From an uncultured Lachnospiraceae bacterium (GTDB lineage: Bacteria; Bacillota; Clostridia; Lachnospirales; Lachnospiraceae), in NCBI GenBank assembly GCA_947175175.1, contig CAMWLV010000030.1, positions 1 through 32,234 on the forward strand: DNA of 32,234 bases, written 5' to 3'. The translations under genes and the position numbers were made by a program. Every line of letters begins with the position of its first letter. Position 1 is the stretch's first letter. Below, in pieces: positions 22,165-32,234 of the stretch. The notes below the pieces were generated by a model. It made no database searches, was not told where the DNA came from, and saw only the letters and a program-made list of their open reading frames with translations.

Positions 22165-22926
22165 ATGAACTTTGATGAATTAGACCGGAAGATGCGCGTA
22201 TATGAGCAGTCGTTAGACCAGATACTTTTACCGGAGACATATATGGTGGCAAGACTTGACGGCAGGAGTTTTACGAGGCTTACGAAGGAAATCTGCAGAT
22301 TTGAGACGCCATTTGATGTGCGGTTCAGGGATTTGATGGTTCACACCGTTGAAAAGCTGATGGACTGTGGATTCCGCATTGTTTATGGATTTACGGAGAG
22401 TGACGAGATTTCGCTGCTGTTTGCCGTGGGAGAGAATGCATTTGGGAGAAAAGTGCGCAAGTACAATTCCACACTGGCAGCAGAGGCGAGTGCGTCCTTT
22501 TCGCTGGAGCTTGGAAGGGCAGCTGCGTTTGACTGCAGAATGGTGCCGCTTCCCACGATTGAGAGAGTGCAGGACTACTTTCTGTGGAGGCAGGAGGATG
22601 CACACAGAAATTCATTGAATGCACACTGTTACTGGCTGCTCAGAAAAGAGGGAAAAACAGTGCAGGAAGCCACAAAAGAGCTGGAAGGGCAGTCAGTGAG
22701 TTTTAAGAACGAACTGCTTTTTTCCAGGGGGATTAATTTTGACCAGCTTCCCTCATGGCAGAAACGAGGAATCGGCGTTTGGAAAGAGCAGTATGAAAAA
22801 GAAGGGGTCAATCCTTTGACAGGAAATCATGAGATGGCAGTCAGAAACAGACTGAAAGTCGAGTATGAGCTACCGCTGGGAGAAACGTATGCAAAGATGG
22901 TTTGCGGGCTGCTTGGGTGTGTTTGA
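22165..22926 (+). CDS. Thg1-like 3'-5' nucleotidyltransferase (tRNA-His guanylyltransferase family)
   Basis: A 253-residue member of the Thg1/TLP family, which adds nucleotides to RNA 5' ends in the 3'-5' direction. The metal-binding Asp32 is in ARLDGRSFTRL. The second site is SDEISLL (Asp80, Glu81), with the usual F..PFDxRF helix between them. The later RNSLNAHCYWLLRKEG takes the place of the eukaryotic HINNLYN segment and looks like that of bacterial TLPs, which repair 5'-truncated tRNAs. Bacterial tRNA-His normally encodes G-1, so repair is a better guess than G-1 addition. The ATG at 22165 with AAGGGGG is preferred to the earlier start at 22090. Co-directional with the kinase-like gene; a strong terminator follows. 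Confidence 0.85.
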   Translation: MNFDELDRKMRVYEQSLDQILLPETYMVARLDGRSFTRLTKEICRFETPFDVRFRDLMVHTVEKLMDCGFRIVYGFTESDEISLLFAVGENAFGRKVRKYNSTLAAEASASFSLELGRAAAFDCRMVPLPTIERVQDYFLWRQEDAHRNSLNAHCYWLLRKEGKTVQEATKELEGQSVSFKNELLFSRGINFDQLPSWQKRGIGVWKEQYEKEGVNPLTGNHEMAVRNRLKVEYELPLGETYAKMVCGLLGCV

Positions 22927-25485: not shown

Positions 25486-28353
25486 ATGGACAGAGAACAA
25501 CTCAAAATGCTTCCAAAGGGAGAAATCATCAAGATTCGTGGGGCGAATGAACACAACCTGAAAAATATTGATCTGGACATTCCAAGAAATAAATTTGTCG
25601 TGTTGACAGGATTGTCTGGTTCTGGTAAGTCCTCCCTAGCATTTGACACGATCTACGCGGAAGGGCAGAGGAGATATATGGAGTCGTTGTCATCCTATGC
25701 CAGACAGTTTTTGGGACAAATGGAAAAGCCAAATGTGGAGCGCATAGAGGGGTTGTCGCCGGCGATCTCGATCGACCAGAAGTCCACCAACCGAAATCCG
25801 CGCTCAACAGTCGGTACTGTGACAGAGATTTATGATTACTTTAGGCTGTTATATGCGCGGATCGGGATACCACACTGTCCAAACTGCGGCAGGGAGATTA
25901 AGCGCCAGACGGTAGACCAGATGGTAGACCAGATCATGGAGCTGCCGCAGGGCACGAAGCTTCAGCTTCTTGCGCCGGTGGTGCGCGGCAGAAAGGGTGA
26001 ACACGTTAAGGTGCTTGACCGTGCCAAAAAAAGCGGATATGTGCGTGTCCGGATCGACGGAAATTTGTATGATCTGTCAGAGGAGATCAAACTAGAGAAA
26101 AACATCAAGCACAATATTGAGATCATTGTGGACAGGATTGTCGTAAAAGAAGGCGTTGAGCGGAGACTGACAGATTCCATCGAGAATGTCATGGCACTTT
26201 CCGACGGACTGTTGATGGTCGATGTGATCGACGGAGAGATGATGAATTTCTCTGACAGTTTTGCCTGTCCTGACTGCAATATCAGCATCGATGAGGTGGA
26301 GCCGAGAAGCTTTTCGTTCAACAATCCATTCGGTGCCTGCCCAGAGTGTTTCGGGCTTGGTTATAAGATGGAGTTTGATATTGATCTGATCATACCAGAT
26401 AAAAGCCTTAGTATCAATCAGGGTGCGATTGCTGTCATGGGCTGGCAGTCGTGTGCGGACAAGGGAAGCTTTACAAATGCGATTTTGCAGGCTTTGTGCA
26501 AGGAATATGATTTTTCTCTTGACACACCGTTCGAAGAGTTATCGGATAGGGTAAAGGATGTACTGGTCTACGGAACAAAGGGGAAAGAAGTAACGGTACA
26601 TTACAAAGGACAGCGCGGTGAGGGGACTTATCCGGTGGCATTTGAGGGATTGATCAGAAATGTAGAGCGCAGATACAGGGAGACTGCGTCTGAAGGGATC
26701 AAGCAGGAGTATGAGACTTTTATGCGTATCACTCCCTGTAAGGAATGCGGTGGCAGGCGTCTGAAGAAAAGTTCGCTGTCTGTGACCGTCTGCGGTAAGA
26801 ATATTTATGAGATCACTTCTATGTCCATCACAAATCTTTACAGTTTTCTGGACACGATGGAGCTGACAAAACAGCAGCAGCTGATCGGCAAGCGTATCCT
26901 GAAAGAAATACGGGCGAGGGTAGGATTTCTTGCAAGTGTCGGGCTGGAATACCTGTGTCTGTCAAGGGGAACAGCTTCTCTGTCAGGCGGTGAGGCACAG
27001 CGTATCAGACTGGCAACGCAGATTGGTTCTGGGCTTGTCGGCGTCTGTTATATCTTGGATGAGCCGAGTATCGGACTGCATCAGAGGGACAATGACAAGC
27101 TATTGGCGGCTCTTCGCAATCTGCAGGGACTTGGAAACACGCTAATCGTCGTGGAACATGACGAGGATACTATGCTGGCGGCGGATCATGTGATTGATAT
27201 TGGACCAGGTGCCGGAGAGCATGGGGGAGAAGTGATCGCACAGGGAACAGCGCAGGAGATCATGCAGGTGCCGGAATCCGTCACAGGACAGTATCTGAGC
27301 GGGAAAATACAGATTCCTGTGCCGGAGTGCAGGAGAAAGCCAACGGGCTGGCTGGCGGTAAAAGGAGCGGCAGAGAACAACCTCAAAAATATTGACGTGA
27401 AGTTTCCGCTTGGTGTGTTTACCTGTGTGACAGGTGTGTCAGGTTCTGGCAAGTCGTCTCTGGTAAATGAGATCTTGTACAAGTATCTGGCAAAAAAATT
27501 GAACAGGGCGCGTACTTTACCAGGTAAGTTCAAGAAAATAGAAGGGGTGGAACAGCTTGACAAGGTGATTGCCATTGACCAGTCACCGATCGGCAGGACA
27601 CCGCGGTCAAATCCAGCTACTTACACAGGTGTGTTTGACCAGATCAGGGATCTGTTTGCCTCGACTGTCGATGCGAAGGCAAAAGGATACAGCAAAGGAC
27701 GTTTTAGCTTTAATGTGAAGGGCGGACGATGCGAGGCGTGCGGCGGCGATGGCATTATCAAGATTGAGATGCATTTTCTGCCAGATGTGTATGTGCCGTG
27801 TGAGGTTTGTCAGGGAAGGCGCTACAATCGAGAGACACTTGATGTAAAATATAAAGGAAAGAGTATCTATGATGTGCTGGACATGACAGTCGAGGAGGCA
27901 ATGACATTTTTTGAGCCAGTTCCTTCTATTAGAAGAAAGATCGAGACTCTGTATGATGTGGGACTCTCTTATATCAAGCTGGGCCAGCCTTCAACTACGC
28001 TGTCGGGCGGCGAGGCGCAGCGCATCAAGCTGGCGACGGAACTAAGCCGCAGAAGTACAGGGAAGACCATTTATATTCTGGACGAGCCGACGACAGGACT
28101 TCACTTTGCAGATGTGCATAAACTTGTTGAGATCCTGCAGCGTCTTGCGGAGGGAGGCAACACCGTGATTGTCATTGAGCACAATCTTGATGTGATCAAG
28201 ACGGCGGACTATATCATTGACATTGGACCAGAGGGAGGAGATGGCGGCGGAACGGTGATTGCCGAGGGCACACCAGAGCACATTGCCAAGTGTCCGCATT
28301 CTTACACAGGAATCTATGTCAAGAGAATGTTGGAGCGGGCAAAAAATAAATAA
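25486..28353 (+). CDS. uvrA: Excinuclease ABC subunit A
   Basis: The DNA-damage sensor of nucleotide excision repair. The 955-residue protein has two ABC modules. First Walker A is GLSGSGKS (42-49), with Cys pairs CPNCG and CPDC/CPEC for zinc fingers. Second Walker A is GVSGSGKS, with a zinc module CEACGGDG ... [10 protein letters not shown]. Signatures LSGGEAQRI occur twice, and Walker B is LDEPTTGLH at the C-terminus and LDEPSIGLH in the first module. It follows uvrB by 91 bases. That gap holds a possible weak promoter, TATAAT at 25454-25459, so uvrA may also be expressed alone. The ATG at 25486 follows AAAGG. Confidence 0.97.
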
Positions 28354-28374: not shown

Positions 28375-28429
28375 TTGGGAATTTCATAGAACAAGAGGTT
28401 TTGGAAATGGGAGCAGATTACAATATACT
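28375..28429 (+). promoter_or_regulatory. Promoter and candidate operator of the first XRE-family regulator
   Basis: TTGGAA (28401-28406), a 17-base spacer, and TATACT (28424-28429) make a good sigma-A promoter starting near 28436. Just upstream is a box TTGGGAATTTCATAG (28375-28389). It shares 12 of 15 positions with TTGGAAATTCCATAA (30669-30683) at the permease promoter. A start near 28436 rules out the in-frame ATG at 28430 as the translation start. Confidence 0.6.
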
Positions 28430-28468
28430 ATGGATAAAAATATTTTTGTGGAAAATGATAGGCATATT

Positions 28469-29449
28469 ATGGAAATCAATTCGGCGGGTGTCGTGTTGGC
28501 CTACTATAGAAATAAATATAGTTTGACATTGGAACAGGTGTGTGATGGGATCTGCTCCGTCAGTAAACTGCTGCGGATGGAGAAGGGAATAAGATGTGTG
28601 GATTCCTTGACAAGCAGTCAGCTTCTGGAGAGGATTGGAAAGACGGCAGACCAGTTTGAGCAGCTCTTAAATGATGAGGATTATGGACTGTGGCGTGCAA
28701 GGGAATCTATAAGGAAGAGCATACAGCAGAGGAAGTATGGGAAAGTGAAGGAAGATCTGGCATCATATCGCACTATGAAAAATAACGCCCCCAATCTGCA
28801 TGAACAGTTCTGCCTTTACCAGGAGGTTATGATGAAAGCAGAGCGGTTAAGAAGTGTCGGGAGAGTCCATTATGTTCCACAGGACGAACAGGCTGAACTG
28901 TGCGAAACAGCACTGCGTGCATTGCATCTAACAAAGCCTGCGTTTGTGTTTTGCGGTAGTGGGGAGAGACAATTGTATACATCAACGGAGATAGAACTCA
29001 TATTGCTTGTAGTTCACTATGGAACATACTGCACGGATACTCAGACAGAGGATATGCTCTTGAATCTGTTTCGGCATGTAGATTATTATTATTTGGAACG
29101 AGAGAGGCAGAAAATCGGATATTTGATCCTCGAAGAGCTGATTGAGCTGGCACAAAAACTGCAGGACTGGGATAAAGAGTTGGATTACATAGATAAGGGT
29201 ATTGACTTTGTTGTGCAGGGAAGGGAGATAACAGGGGTGGCCAGGCTGCATTTTCTTAAGGCCCAGGCATTACAGCGTCAGTGTGGGGCAGCTCTCGCGG
29301 AGGACAATGTATTCAGGAAGGAAATTCAGAGAGAATGCCTGATGGCATACAGTGTCTGTGAAGTGTTTGGTGATGTGTGTCTGATGGAGGCGATCAAGCG
29401 ATTCTGTGAGGAGGAATTGAAATGGCAAATTACAAGGCTGGAGATGTGA
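28469..29449 (+). CDS. XRE-family HTH regulator with helical-repeat domain (RRNPP-like), first of a pair
   Basis: A 326-residue protein. The N-terminal helix-turn-helix reads LAYYRNKYSLTLEQVCDGICSVSKLLRMEKGIR, the Cro/CI-like HTH found in PlcR/Rgg-type regulators. The remaining 250 residues are helical and probably TPR-like (KYGKVKEDLASYRTMK; LILEELIELAQKLQDWDKELDYIDKGIDF). In RRNPP regulators such repeats bind a signalling peptide. The ATG at 28469 is preferred because the promoter starts after the earlier in-frame ATG at 28430, although its RBS is weak. It overlaps the second regulator by 28 bases. The target and ligand are unknown. Confidence 0.75.
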   Translation: MEINSAGVVLAYYRNKYSLTLEQVCDGICSVSKLLRMEKGIRCVDSLTSSQLLERIGKTADQFEQLLNDEDYGLWRARESIRKSIQQRKYGKVKEDLASYRTMKNNAPNLHEQFCLYQEVMMKAERLRSVGRVHYVPQDEQAELCETALRALHLTKPAFVFCGSGERQLYTSTEIELILLVVHYGTYCTDTQTEDMLLNLFRHVDYYYLERERQKIGYLILEELIELAQKLQDWDKELDYIDKGIDFVVQGREITGVARLHFLKAQALQRQCGAALAEDNVFRKEIQRECLMAYSVCEVFGDVCLMEAIKRFCEEELKWQITRLEM

Positions 29450-30378
29450 TCCGCCTGACGAGGAATGCGGTCGGAATGACACAGGAAGAGCTGAGTAACG
29501 GAATCTGTTCTGTGGAGACATTGTCACGCATTGAAAACAATAGACATAAGATCAAGCGTGAAACATACAGAAAACTCATGGAGAAGATGGGACGTGGAGT
29601 GCATGACAACTGTGCGCTCTGCATGGGTCGGGATATGTCACTGCTGGAGGAATATATCATGTTTGAGGATGCCATGGCAAAACGGGAGTATAGTGTCGCA
29701 GAGCGGTATCTGGCACATATCAGGGAGAAAATATCAGGTTCTCTGGTGGACAGGCAGTATCTGAAAAGAGTAGAGAACTTTTTGGGGTATGATATGAAGA
29801 GGATTGATGCGCAAGAATGTATGTCGCAGCTGCATGTGGCAATGAAAATGACAGTTCCGGACTATGAGTGTTATCTGTGGGGGGAGAAGCGCGATAAAGT
29901 ATATCCGTACAGGGAGCAGGAAATATTGATTCTTATGGGGATTGGAAATACATATTATGATATGAATGAAATGGATAAAGCCATTTGGGTATATGAGACG
30001 ATTATAAAGAGTCTGGATGCTGGATATATGGATGCGAAAAATGTGGAGGAATTGAAGCTTATCAATTTGGCGAATTTAGTACGACCGCTCGGAAAGCTGG
30101 AACGATACGAAGAAGCGTTGTCAAAGGCAGAAGAAGGTTTAGATATGGCAGTCAGCCAGAGGTATGCACATGCATTGGTTGAATTGTTGATGGGAGTGGC
30201 GTGGAACAAGTTAAAACTGGCTAAAAAGATGGAGGATTCCAAGCTGCAGAAACAAGAATTGAAAGAATCAAATAGAATGATGCGGCAGGCATATTATATT
30301 GCCGCCGCAAGGAAAGATGTGCACAACCAAAAACTCATCAATGAAAATCTTAAATATCATTTTGGCGAGGAGATATAA
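29422..30378 (+). CDS. XRE-family HTH regulator with TPR domain (RRNPP-like), second of a pair
   Basis: A 318-residue regulator. The HTH (residues 5-45) reads IRLTRNAVGMTQEELSNGICSVETLSRIENNRHK and shares the GICSVxxLxRxE recognition segment with the preceding gene. Its C-terminal region has TPR-like helices: IGNTYYDMNEMDKAIWVYETII and LEELGKLERYEEALSKAEEGL-type segments (positions about 168-245). The two regulators are clearly homologous but diverged. GAGGAGGA precedes the ATG at 29422, which lies inside the first regulator gene. Its stop region overlaps the 3' end of a minus-strand peptide ORF and the terminator at 30453. A peptide-sensing role is inferred from the domain pattern and the neighbouring ORF. 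Confidence 0.85.
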   Translation: MANYKAGDVIRLTRNAVGMTQEELSNGICSVETLSRIENNRHKIKRETYRKLMEKMGRGVHDNCALCMGRDMSLLEEYIMFEDAMAKREYSVAERYLAHIREKISGSLVDRQYLKRVENFLGYDMKRIDAQECMSQLHVAMKMTVPDYECYLWGEKRDKVYPYREQEILILMGIGNTYYDMNEMDKAIWVYETIIKSLDAGYMDAKNVEELKLINLANLVRPLGKLERYEEALSKAEEGLDMAVSQRYAHALVELLMGVAWNKLKLAKKMEDSKLQKQELKESNRMMRQAYYIAAARKDVHNQKLINENLKYHFGEEI

Positions 30379-30514
30379 AAAAATGAGTTTCTGTTTTAGA
30401 GGAATATTCAGGTTCGCTACAACGGCTGTATTGTGGACTGACATAGAGAATCATGAGCATCAGTATAAAGGTGCTCATTTTTTTGATTTTGTTTAAGGAC
30501 TTTTTGTTCTTCAT
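30350..30514 (-). CDS. Candidate exported peptide precursor
   Basis: A 54-codon ORF on the minus strand. A near-consensus AGGAGG lies 8 bases before its ATG. The N-terminus has seven Lys residues in 12, then a hydrophobic FILMLMILYV, then SPQYS, as in a signal peptide or peptide-pheromone precursor. The C-terminal 24 residues (EPEYSSKTETHFFISPRQ, then NDI) would be exported. Two TTGACA elements lie upstream, each in an arm of the 50-bp palindrome or nearby. It overlaps the 3' end of the regulator at 29422 by 29 bases and contains the regulator's terminator on the other strand. No homologue is recognised, and the ORF could be incidental. Confidence 0.5.
   Translation of the reverse strand: MKNKKSLNKIKKMSTFILMLMILYVSPQYSRCSEPEYSSKTETHFFISPRQNDI
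30453..30484 (+). terminator. Intrinsic terminator of the regulator pair
   Basis: ATGAGCA (30453-30459) pairs with TGCTCAT (30472-30478) around a 12-base loop, followed by a T-run to 30484. It lies within the minus-strand peptide ORF, so the same DNA would encode part of its hydrophobic core. Confidence 0.8.
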
Positions 30515-30567
30515 ATATAAAACCTCCTGGAACAGATAATAATTTATTTTATCATGTATTTTGCGCA

Positions 30568-30617
30568 ACCACCATGTCAAAACTGGAAAAATATTTTTCC
30601 GGTTTTGACATGGTGGT
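30568..30617. repeat. 50-bp near-perfect palindrome with divergent TTGACA elements
   Basis: The 25-bp arms (30568-30592 and 30593-30617) differ at one position (T/C at 30584 against its partner). Each arm carries TTGACA pointing outward: minus at 30580-30575, with CATGAT 18 bases on (30556-30551), and plus at 30605-30610, with TAAAAT 15 bases on (30626-30631). A second minus-strand promoter, TTGACA (30650-30645)-17-TATGAC (30627-30622), would start transcription in the palindrome. It is likely the shared control region of the peptide ORF and the permease genes. It has no outer T-run and is not a standard terminator. Confidence 0.8.
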
Positions 30618-30660
30618 ATTTGTCATAAAATGGTATATTAAAGGTGTCAAGCTTGAACAA

Positions 30661-30689
30661 ATAATATTTTGGAAATTCCATAATATAAT
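30661..30689 (+). promoter_or_regulatory. Permease operon promoter overlapped by an inverted repeat
   Basis: TATAAT lies at 30684-30689. No good -35 is found at 16-18 bases. Centred on 30675, an inverted repeat (core TGGAAATTCCA at 30670-30680) pairs at 12 of 14 positions out to 30661/30689. Such placement over the spacer and -10 fits control by a DNA-binding regulator, plausibly one of the two XRE-type proteins. Confidence 0.55.
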
Positions 30690-30748
30690 AAGATTTTTGG
30701 CTATTAGAAAAATGGAATTAACTGAAAAAACAGATGGGAGATGAAACT

Positions 30749-30820
30749 ATGTTGAGAACTTGGGGAAATTAATAATCTGATATCAGCATGAGTGTTATCT
30801 GTTTGTCAGAAACACTCATG
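30749..30820 (+). promoter_or_regulatory. Leader with a 7-codon ORF and a 10-bp hairpin
   Basis: GGGAG lies 9 bases before an ATG at 30749, which encodes MLRTWGN and stops at 30772. Fifteen bases later, CATGAGTGTT (30787-30796) and AACACTCATG (30811-30820) form a perfect 10-bp stem. The stretch after it (TTGTTGCTTTG) is a weak T-rich tract. This resembles a leader-peptide attenuator between the promoter and the first permease gene, but a chance ORF is possible. Confidence 0.35.
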
Positions 30821-30919
30821 TTGTTGCTTTGCGAAATGAAGTGGGAGAAGTTCAGGAGATCGTAGCTGTATCACATTATATTATGAATAGTTCCTTAGGG
30901 ATTGGGAAAGAGGGAATAG

Positions 30920-31666
30920 ATGTTAGTAGGGATTATAAAAATTCAGTTTTGCAAACTCAGGGTATATAGAGGTTCATTGATCATTAATTTCTTTTTTTCG
31001 ATACTGGCTGTATATATAACATACACACTCTATAGTTTATTGCTAAACGATCAACATTCGCAGTTGTATTTATTAGCTTATTCAACATTGTCGATTGTAA
31101 TACAACAGTCTATGGCGATTGTTCGGATTCCAGAATTTTGCAAAAATATTAAGAAAGGGACTATTGCTAAATATTACAAGTATCCAGTTTCTGTGTATTT
31201 CCAGTTTATTTGTGAGGAGATGGGCAATTCTTTATATTCTTTGCTAGGATCAGGAGTATTGATGATTCTTGTCTTTGTAATATGTAAGAGAGATGTTTGT
31301 TCTATTATTTTGTTCACATTCTCATTGGTTTTGTCAGCACTGTTAGCGGTGGTGTTTACTTTGAATGTCTATAGCATTACATTTCTTTTTTGGAATTATA
31401 AGAGTTCTAAAGCAATATTAACTGCGCTGAGCAGTTTGTTTTCTGGATCAATGATTCCGTTGGTGCTGCTGCCTGATTGGTTTTGCAAAATAGCATACAA
31501 CACTCCATTTGCGTATATGGTGGATTTGCCAATTCGGATGTTGTTAGATTATAATAAGCCAGTTGAGTATTTGGTTTTACAATTAGTATGGATTTTCGTT
31601 TTGATTGTGATTGGATTTGTCATATATAATATAGTAGAATCTAAAATAAATGTTTATGGCGGATAG
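30920..31666 (+). CDS. ABC-2 type transporter permease
   Basis: A 248-residue membrane protein with about six TM helices: LIINFFFSILAVYITYTLYS, LYSLLGSGVLMILVFVI, IILFTFSLVLSALLAVVFTL, LSSLFSGSMIPLVLLPDW and VLQLVWIFVLIVIGFVIYN among them. The FSGSMIPLVLLPDWF..AYNTPFAYMVDLPIRM order is typical of the uncharacterised two-permease ABC-2 systems (COG4587-like). In those systems two permeases pair with one ATPase. GAGGGA lies 7 bases before the ATG at 30920. The second permease begins 13 bases after its stop. The substrate is unknown; a peptide or lipid-type export role is possible given the nearby peptide ORF. The region is AT-rich compared with the uvr genes. Confidence 0.85.
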   Translation: MLVGIIKIQFCKLRVYRGSLIINFFFSILAVYITYTLYSLLLNDQHSQLYLLAYSTLSIVIQQSMAIVRIPEFCKNIKKGTIAKYYKYPVSVYFQFICEEMGNSLYSLLGSGVLMILVFVICKRDVCSIILFTFSLVLSALLAVVFTLNVYSITFLFWNYKSSKAILTALSSLFSGSMIPLVLLPDWFCKIAYNTPFAYMVDLPIRMLLDYNKPVEYLVLQLVWIFVLIVIGFVIYNIVESKINVYGG

Positions 31667-31679
31667 GAGTAGAGGAGAT

Positions 31680-32234
31680 ATGATATTTAGCTATTGGAGA
31701 ATAAGTATCCTAGCACAGCTGACATATAAAAAAGATTTTTTAGTAGAAATTATAGTATGGTTTCTTTATTCAACGATACCTTTCTTATCACTGACGTTAC
31801 TATTACAAAAATTTGTATATCTTGGCAGATTTTCGATTTATCATATTGCTGTATTGTATGGACTTAGTCAGATGTCCTATGATATTGCGCGAATGTTTGG
31901 CAGAGGGTTTGACAATTTTGCGGACACTATTATGAGTGGTGATTTTGACATTTATTATATACGACCGTTATCAATATTATTTCAAATACTCGCCAATGAT
32001 ATTTTTTTGAGGAGAATAGCAGGTATATTACAGGGAGCGATTATACTTGCCTGGGGGCTGACAAAACTTCAAATGTTATCTTCTCTTTTCCAAATCATTT
32101 TAATTGTTTTTATCGGTTCATTGATGTACATGGGTTTGTTTATATTTAACTCATCATTAATACTATTAACAATAAAAGAAAATTCATTTGTTAGTTATTT
32201 AATTGACTTATCAGTTCAGGTTGGATATTATCCC
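31680..32234 (+). CDS. ABC-2 type transporter permease, partner subunit (3' end outside window)
   Basis: The ATG at 31680 with GAGGAG upstream opens a frame that runs past the end of the window; 185 codons are present. The N-terminus FSYWRISILAQLTYKKDFL is followed by a TM segment. FGRGFDNFADTIMSGDFDIYYIRPLSILFQIL is the hallmark of the COG3694-like permease that pairs with the preceding type (the usual form is GFDxFxxxIxxGxFDxxLLRPLxxLxQ). Further TM helices follow (AIILAWGLTKL, IILIVFIGSLMYMGLFIF). An ATP-binding subunit is expected downstream or elsewhere; none is in the window. Likely the second gene of the 30920 operon. Confidence 0.85.
   Translation, partial: MIFSYWRISILAQLTYKKDFLVEIIVWFLYSTIPFLSLTLLLQKFVYLGRFSIYHIAVLYGLSQMSYDIARMFGRGFDNFADTIMSGDFDIYYIRPLSILFQILANDIFLRRIAGILQGAIILAWGLTKLQMLSSLFQIILIVFIGSLMYMGLFIFNSSLILLTIKENSFVSYLIDLSVQVGYYP

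Follow-up and report, generated by a model that had tools for sequence, protein, structure and literature searches.

Do two overlapping regulator genes, a small open reading frame (ORF) facing them and a palindrome ahead of two transporter genes form a peptide pheromone circuit in an uncultured Lachnospiraceae bacterium? The question is raised by the last part of a stretch of 32,234 bases (the window), one entire contig (C30) of a 4.1-Mb draft genome (86.5% complete) whose near relatives are Lachnospiraceae, with genomes G013 and G022 placed in the same genus. An interpretation made from the letters alone (the sequence-only reading) had proposed here a peptide-sensing circuit of the RRNPP type, and receptor folds, a conserved precursor gene and an operator-like palindrome now support that proposal. 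The likely explanation, in our view, is a pheromone circuit of the RRNPP type in which the receptor is doubled and which heads a radical S-adenosylmethionine (radical-SAM) gene cluster for a ribosomally synthesized and post-translationally modified peptide (RiPP). What was computed here is the order of the genes and how far it is conserved, the coding selection acting on the precursor, the receptor folds, the operator-like palindrome, the radical-SAM genes in the corresponding slot of the related locus L033 and a SPASM domain opening contig C24 of the window's own genome.

Directly ahead of the regulator pair, positions 25486–28353 read by eye as uvrA; the two regulators (+), the 54-codon ORF (−), the 50-bp palindrome and the two permeases follow in that order. 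The elements named in the sequence-only reading (two overlapping regulators with helix-turn-helix (HTH) and helical-repeat domains, a convergent ORF resembling a signal-peptide-bearing precursor, a divergent palindromic control region and two ABC-2, i.e. ATP-binding cassette (ABC) type, permeases) are all present, with the following coordinates:

28469–29449, + strand: regulator 1 (326 aa), HTH and tetratricopeptide repeats (TPR), Rgg/ComR/PlcR-like predicted fold (fold model, PDB matches)
29409–29414, + strand: Shine-Dalgarno sequence AGGAGG of regulator 2, within regulator 1 (read in the sequence)
29422–30378, + strand: regulator 2 (318 aa), HTH and TPR, PlcR-like predicted fold
30350–30514, − strand: candidate pheromone precursor (54 aa) with basic N-end, hydrophobic core and tail ...SPQYSRCSEPEYSS...ISPRQNDI (Shine-Dalgarno sequence, orthologues, dN/dS)
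30453–30484, + strand: hairpin and T-run (ATGAGCA...TGCTCAT), probable terminator of the regulator operon, antisense within the precursor gene (read directly)
30523–30528, − strand: Shine-Dalgarno sequence AGGAGG of the precursor (read and scored)
30546–30551, − strand: −10-like TAAAAT of the precursor gene, 23 nt from a TTGACA of the palindrome (chosen by eye)
30568–30617, no strand: operator-like palindrome CACCATGTCAAAAC...GTTTTGACATGGTG (50 bp, 23-bp arms, one mismatch), between the precursor gene and the output genes
30634–30639, + strand: −10-like TATATT of the output operon, 23 nt from a TTGACA of the palindrome (chosen by eye)
30920–31666, + strand: ABC-2 permease 1 (ABC2_membrane_6, 36.2 bits, cut-off 22)
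31680–32234, + strand: ABC-2 permease 2, truncated by the contig end (ABC2_membrane_6, 57.7 bits, cut-off 22)

In the circuit that we propose, the precursor would be exported by means of its signal-like N-end and trimmed to a short C-terminal peptide, which would be re-imported and would bind in the TPR groove of either receptor or of both. The receptor unit would consist of two proteins whose translation is coupled or, in relatives, of a single fused chain; it would bind the palindrome, which separates the divergently transcribed precursor gene and output operon, and switch the two. The signal would thereby feed itself and turn on product synthesis and ABC export. Export, processing, uptake, binding, activation over repression and RiPP export by the window permeases are the steps that we infer.

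The regulator pair and its relatives

Both regulators are predicted to be HTH-TPR proteins whose folds match the RRNPP pheromone receptors best. The model of regulator 1 (pLDDT 77.8, pTM 0.70; <50 for residues 1–17 of P0001, which is regulator 1 read from the alternative start 28430) found its best PDB matches in Rgg2, ComR and PlcR, followed by PrgX, and the top structure match of regulator 2 was PlcR, ahead of unrelated TPR proteins. The concave TPR groove on which the sequence-only reading had hinged appears in the models, as part of a predicted C-terminal superhelix like that of the solved RRNPP members. HTH_3 scored 33.4 bits in regulator 2 (cut-off 23) and fell under the cut-off in regulator 1 (E 0.049), where the model helices nonetheless lie in the HTH pattern. 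The score of RNPP_C (PF18768) was 20.6 bits in P0002 (cut-off 26.5) and above the cut-off in the relatives L042 (33.7) and L056 (32.6); at E 0.01 this domain matched three of the 11 members of A4 and three of the 11 of A1. A profile of 11 fused relatives matched PlcR over 281 positions of the C-half (E 9e-14) and Rgg2 over positions 17–123 of the N-half (E 3.5e-7).

The likely start of regulator 1, judged from its orthologues, is the ATG at 28469; another ATG lies upstream at 28430, and the listed TTG at 28259 falls inside the preceding gene. The two genes overlap by 28 nt, with AGGAGG ahead of the second ATG. Exactly the same overlap is found in the orthologous loci L033, L034 and L035 (37 nt in L037), as is a GGAGG at the regulator 2 site, which L037 lacks.

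To place the pair within its family, loci were picked by the author from match lists, not every match being used. The 60 fetched stretches, 59 of which hold a family member (L071 being the C24 stretch), together with the window, L034, L036 and L037 gave 63 loci with 65 receptor units; L033 and L035 were omitted from counts as duplicates of L072 and L073. These units comprise 42 fused proteins (598–666 aa in 41 of them; 546 aa in L047), 11 pairs and 12 single receptors. In a tree of 115 halves from 62 loci (L077 absent, the C-half of L047 dropped for its length), nine of the 11 pairs, that of the window included, had their upstream partner among the N-halves and their downstream one among the C-halves. 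In the two exceptions, L056 and L078, both members of the pair sit side by side in the tree, which suggests separate duplications; among the fused proteins, L042 and L052 have each of their halves on the C side. L081 seems to derive from a fused gene that split later. Support is modest at the deepest forks (83/80), where a long-branch warning also applies, so that any order of fusion and splitting read from this tree would be tentative. The conclusion stands that the two receptors of this group are passed on together as a single unit, in one chain or two.

The match list places five receptor loci in the window's own genome and as many as ten in the draft relative G017, the precursor having been checked at part of these loci. 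Matches to P0002 at E 0.001 occurred in 21 of 60 near genomes (own included), 18 of them within the genus. Strict searches returned at least two of 397 family genomes (P0002, E 1e-40) and at least six of 391 class genomes (profile A4, E 1e-30), own included in both; these counts are lower bounds because at most five (P0002) and three (A4) candidates per genome were scored. A plasmid origin was rejected, the fused receptor of L042 having just two distant matches among plasmid records (24 and 21% identity).

We lean slightly against a stronger proposal, which we put forward tentatively: that an Rgg-like and a PlcR-like half, in overlapping genes or one chain, may constitute one obligate sensor and a receptor class of its own, with four HTHs per dimer on an operator of ~50 bp, one pheromone read via two grooves and both halves needed, as an AND gate or with an internal antagonist.

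The convergent small gene and the palindrome

The small ORF is convergent with regulator 2, overlaps its end by 29 nt and is intact in all four readable orthologues (L033, L034, L035 and L037). With the last 14 codons excluded, i.e. the part near and in the overlap, the ratio of nonsynonymous to synonymous substitution rates (dN/dS) of the window against L033, L034 and L035 was 0.19, 0.10 and 0.42 respectively, and that of L034 against L035 was 0.39; two pairs were not computable, their synonymous sites being saturated. The sequence-only reading had called for a synteny search in related genomes, and for the small ORF the result was in its favour: 37 of 65 units had a convergent signal-peptide-like ORF (N-end judged by charge and hydropathy) at the 3′ end of the receptor gene, versus two of 387 other genes at the same loci (Fisher p 5e-34, the units being related and not independent). 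By form, these are 28 of 42 fused, seven of 11 paired and two of 12 single units. L036 (cut) and L047 (masked past the receptor) were scored as misses, and convergent ORFs in L048 and L050 were missed by the filter because the charge criterion alone failed (one basic N-end residue only); an earlier count of 26/43 contains the L035/L073 duplicate. The stop of the receptor is overlapped by 35 of the 37 ORFs (18 by exactly 4 nt), and those of L107 and L049 lie past it by 9 and 85 nt. The small ORF is, judged from these comparisons, under coding selection; a chance ORF was ruled out by the unit counts, the orthologues and dN/dS.

Precursor lengths range from 40 to 81 aa across the family. The tails differ by subfamily and contain a recurring short motif (ISPQND, VAPCSD, IAPMSD and similar) in 16 of 39 precursors (500 shuffles: mean 3.1, maximum 9), a figure that serves as a guide only because the pattern was written after viewing the sequences. 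This motif begins exactly 15 residues from the C-end in 11 of the 16; that of the window, ISPRQND, begins 8 from the C-end, and the match in L037, 28 from the C-end, looks accidental. A constant C-terminal stretch would be the expected look of a processed pheromone.

A spacing of 23 nt between TTGACA and the −10-like site, seen on both sides of the palindrome, exceeds what a sigma-70 promoter can use unaided and so suggests an activator, or less probably a repressor. The palindrome pattern occurs at one place in the 4.1-Mb draft genome (the reversed control pattern at none), which rules out a dispersed repeat. A like palindrome is present in L033/L072 and L035, and its output half is gone in L034, where this half and the promoter were apparently deleted between two TGTCAA repeats and the precursor half remains (L034:6621-6760). 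Other subfamilies have their own palindromes at the same place, e.g. TTATGACGTTTTATG... and CAAGGGACAGAATTG...; this second type is found at three places in the window's own genome, all beside two receptor loci. One further copy of the GISTHEY-type palindrome (G000:C60:17533-17568) lies on the start side of a receptor gene and perhaps serves receptor self-control.

Scored as arm length minus 3 per mismatch, palindromes of at least 17 stood ahead of 12 of 37 precursor genes versus seven of 361 control genes (p 2e-9), and none was found even at score 11 ahead of 21 of the 37. A long palindrome (24-bp arms) is also found at L104, where the receptor is single, which speaks against simply pairing double receptors with double operators; the doubled operator was therefore dropped as proof of the doubled receptor.

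Output genes and rival explanations

Of the parts of a RaS-RiPP cluster the window itself has an exporter, namely the two permeases; no ABC ATPase gene was found after them in the window, where the contig ends. Permease 1 had matches at E 0.001 in 30 of 60 genomes, own included; a close copy elsewhere was discarded, the best match outside its own genome being 25% identical (E 9.7e-16). The corresponding slot of L033/L072, a locus that by eye shares the uvrA neighbour, encodes, beyond the palindrome, a precursor-like peptide of 42 aa whose ribosome site is good, two radical-SAM/SPASM proteins and a major facilitator superfamily (MFS) transporter, a PqqD match in a protein of this slot remaining below cut-off. 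In L035/L073 the slot is occupied by an ABC exporter gene together with one for an MFS protein. The window genome's own orthologue of the MFS gene in this slot (81% identity) sits on contig C24, which opens with the end of a protein matching the SPASM domain (33.6 bits, cut-off 27), followed by a protein with a weak TIM-barrel match (24.2 versus 31.1 bits), the MFS gene and then, by eye, the same right-hand genes as in L072. C24 thus probably follows the window, with a likely order of uvrA, receptors, precursor, palindrome, ABC-2 permeases, gap, radical-SAM gene, TIM barrel and MFS gene, in which we infer the joint across the gap. A radical-SAM/SPASM gene is present in the clusters of L033 and L042, and for the window probably so, but only across an unsequenced gap.

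From such neighbours the output looks like a radical-SAM RiPP cluster. L042 has a radical-SAM enzyme and an ABC exporter, L052 is alike by eye and L056 has a radical-SAM enzyme. Directly ahead of these radical-SAM genes lie ORFs of ~30 codons with Cys-bearing tails (L042:11792-11884, L052:11500-11589 and L056:6287-6379), those of L042 and L052 having ...EAGKVDVLVH... in common; they are candidate precursors of a small radical-SAM RiPP (RaS-RiPP) family. In the window, truncated as it is, no convincing RiPP precursor was found: a seven-codon ORF at 30749–30772 (MLRTWGN) was not adopted despite its ribosome site, nor was a TTG-started frame at 30829, which has none. L045, in a group beside a metK-like gene, has a radical-SAM gene (51.7 bits) closest to the Clo7bot maturases and far under their cut-off, and L041 of another group faces a VWA-domain gene. 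Opposite L085 lies a class I tRNA synthetase gene, which shows that receptor neighbours are not all peptide genes. Three oligopeptide-binding proteins (PF00496) encoded in the genome could provide the uptake route for the peptide.

These neighbourhoods bear on the first alternative, which we judge unlikely, namely that the small ORF encodes the product itself, secreted or modified by the radical-SAM enzyme in the manner of a bacteriocin, and that the receptor pair responds to something else. It draws on the radical-SAM genes close to several loci and on L042 and L052, where the small ORF ends a radical-SAM/ABC gene row on the same strand. However, separate Cys-bearing precursor-like ORFs stand ahead of the radical-SAM genes of L042, L052 and L056, with another in L033; the small ORF is also found at VWA loci with no radical-SAM gene among the next four genes; and it overlaps the receptor stop in 35 of 37 cases, only receptor ends having been searched.

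Somewhat less probable again is an intracellular small membrane protein (a partner, an immunity protein or a toxin), or an overlap that acts as antisense RNA on the receptor mRNA. A short, basic ORF with a single hydrophobic segment, antisense to the receptor 3′ end and with a probable terminator hairpin inside it, would suit either form, but several subfamilies share the tail motif (at one fixed distance from the C-end in 11 of 39 precursors), both regulators have the predicted fold of peptide receptors, and dN/dS below 1 in the unsaturated pairs makes antisense RNA alone insufficient. That ordinary regulators merely adjoin a chance ORF, with a palindrome that is a terminator or repeat, is hardly credible: 28 of 65 units lack the ORF under our filter and 23 of 361 control genes have some upstream palindrome at the loosest threshold, yet the ORF accompanies 37 of 65 units against two of 387 controls and is intact in 4/4 readable orthologues, and the palindrome is single in the genome with a −10-like site 23 nt off on both sides.

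Other surroundings of the family were noted in passing. The operon facing one precursor subfamily in L041 (1286-5805) encodes a secreted VWA-domain protein, a 727-aa protein with no Pfam match and proteins of 141–142 aa, and the same operon was seen by eye in L087, L088 and L114, the VWA domain having been tested in L041; there are two of the 141–142 aa proteins each in L041, L088 and L114 and none among the listed genes of L087, and the one tested had no match. This operon is possibly a density-controlled surface machine. L077 (78-9000), from a genome in the same order but a different family, combines a fused double receptor with a phosphopantetheinyl transferase-like gene (by eye) and a nonribosomal peptide synthetase that has AMP-binding, condensation and PP-binding domains. 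Elsewhere in the window, 22165–22926 encodes a Thg1-type tRNA(His) guanylyltransferase (105.9 bits), of a family better known from eukaryotes and archaea.

Known systems and significance

PlcR/PapR of the Bacillus cereus group is closest in fold and sequence profile to regulator 2 and the C-half, and the PapR precursor bears a signal peptide, as the candidate precursor here would with its signal-like N-end. The PapR gene lies 3′ of plcR on the same strand, the PlcR operator is shorter and, unlike the unit described here, PlcR is a single receptor. Streptococcus mutans belongs to a different bacterial class from the Lachnospiraceae. Its pheromone receptor PdrA, with a short hydrophobic peptide (SHP), activates the adjoining wgk (tryglysin) RaS-RiPP operon, as described in the available part of PMC8092268. 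Unlike here, the S. mutans peptide gene is divergent and its receptor single, and the L033 radical-SAM enzyme scored 115 bits versus a cut-off of 650 for WgkB. The Rgg2 and Rgg3 of Streptococcus pyogenes are separate genes at separate places. According to the portion available of PMC13361665, these two receptors serve one pheromone system at overlapping sites, where they are mutually opposed; the receptors described here differ in forming one unit by gene overlap or fusion. The same portion describes SHP/Rgg group III, in which the peptide gene is convergent with the receptor gene and overlaps its 3′ end (PMC13361665). The convergent overlap and the receptor fold are like those of this group (e.g. 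rgg1299 of S. thermophilus), but two receptors take the place of one, precursors of 40–81 aa that of short hydrophobic peptides, and SHP/Rgg belongs to streptococci.

The RRNPP_detector survey, in the parts of its text available, covered receptors of 250–500 aa in 7,974 complete Firmicutes genomes and chromosomes and reported 196 clusters, all in families other than Lachnospiraceae (PMC10075063). As among its candidates, a receptor here adjoins a SEC-type precursor, sometimes in a biosynthetic cluster; the split pair of the window (326 and 318 aa) falls inside that length range, whereas the 42 fused units (546–666 aa, mostly ~600) exceed it. The string 'lachno' is absent from the available main text of that survey, from that of PMC12700828 (as are 'fused' and 'two HTH') and from that of PMC9765709 (as is 'radical SAM'). 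Many RRNPP copies per genome are already known from Paenibacillus, according to the available part of PMC7425212. Among the matches listed from the open-access literature, judged by title and the start of the abstract, no account of doubled RRNPP receptors was found; nor did the open-access papers searched yield an account of RRNPP systems in Lachnospiraceae, none of them containing the terms RRNPP, Lachnospiraceae and quorum sensing together.

The circuit is supported, at sequence level, as a new variation on RRNPP quorum sensing, whose novelty would lie in a doubled receptor that is inherited as a unit, stands at several loci per genome and comes with peptides and operators differing by subfamily. 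If the two receptors do form one obligate sensor, its fused form would have been overlooked by surveys limiting receptors to 500 aa. If the circuit is as proposed, members of this Lachnospiraceae genus would carry several private peptide channels, each with a double receptor and some set on modified-peptide clusters; a short synthetic peptide could then switch on silent peptide products, and the family would offer a clean case for asking what benefit lies in one signal being read by two receptors.

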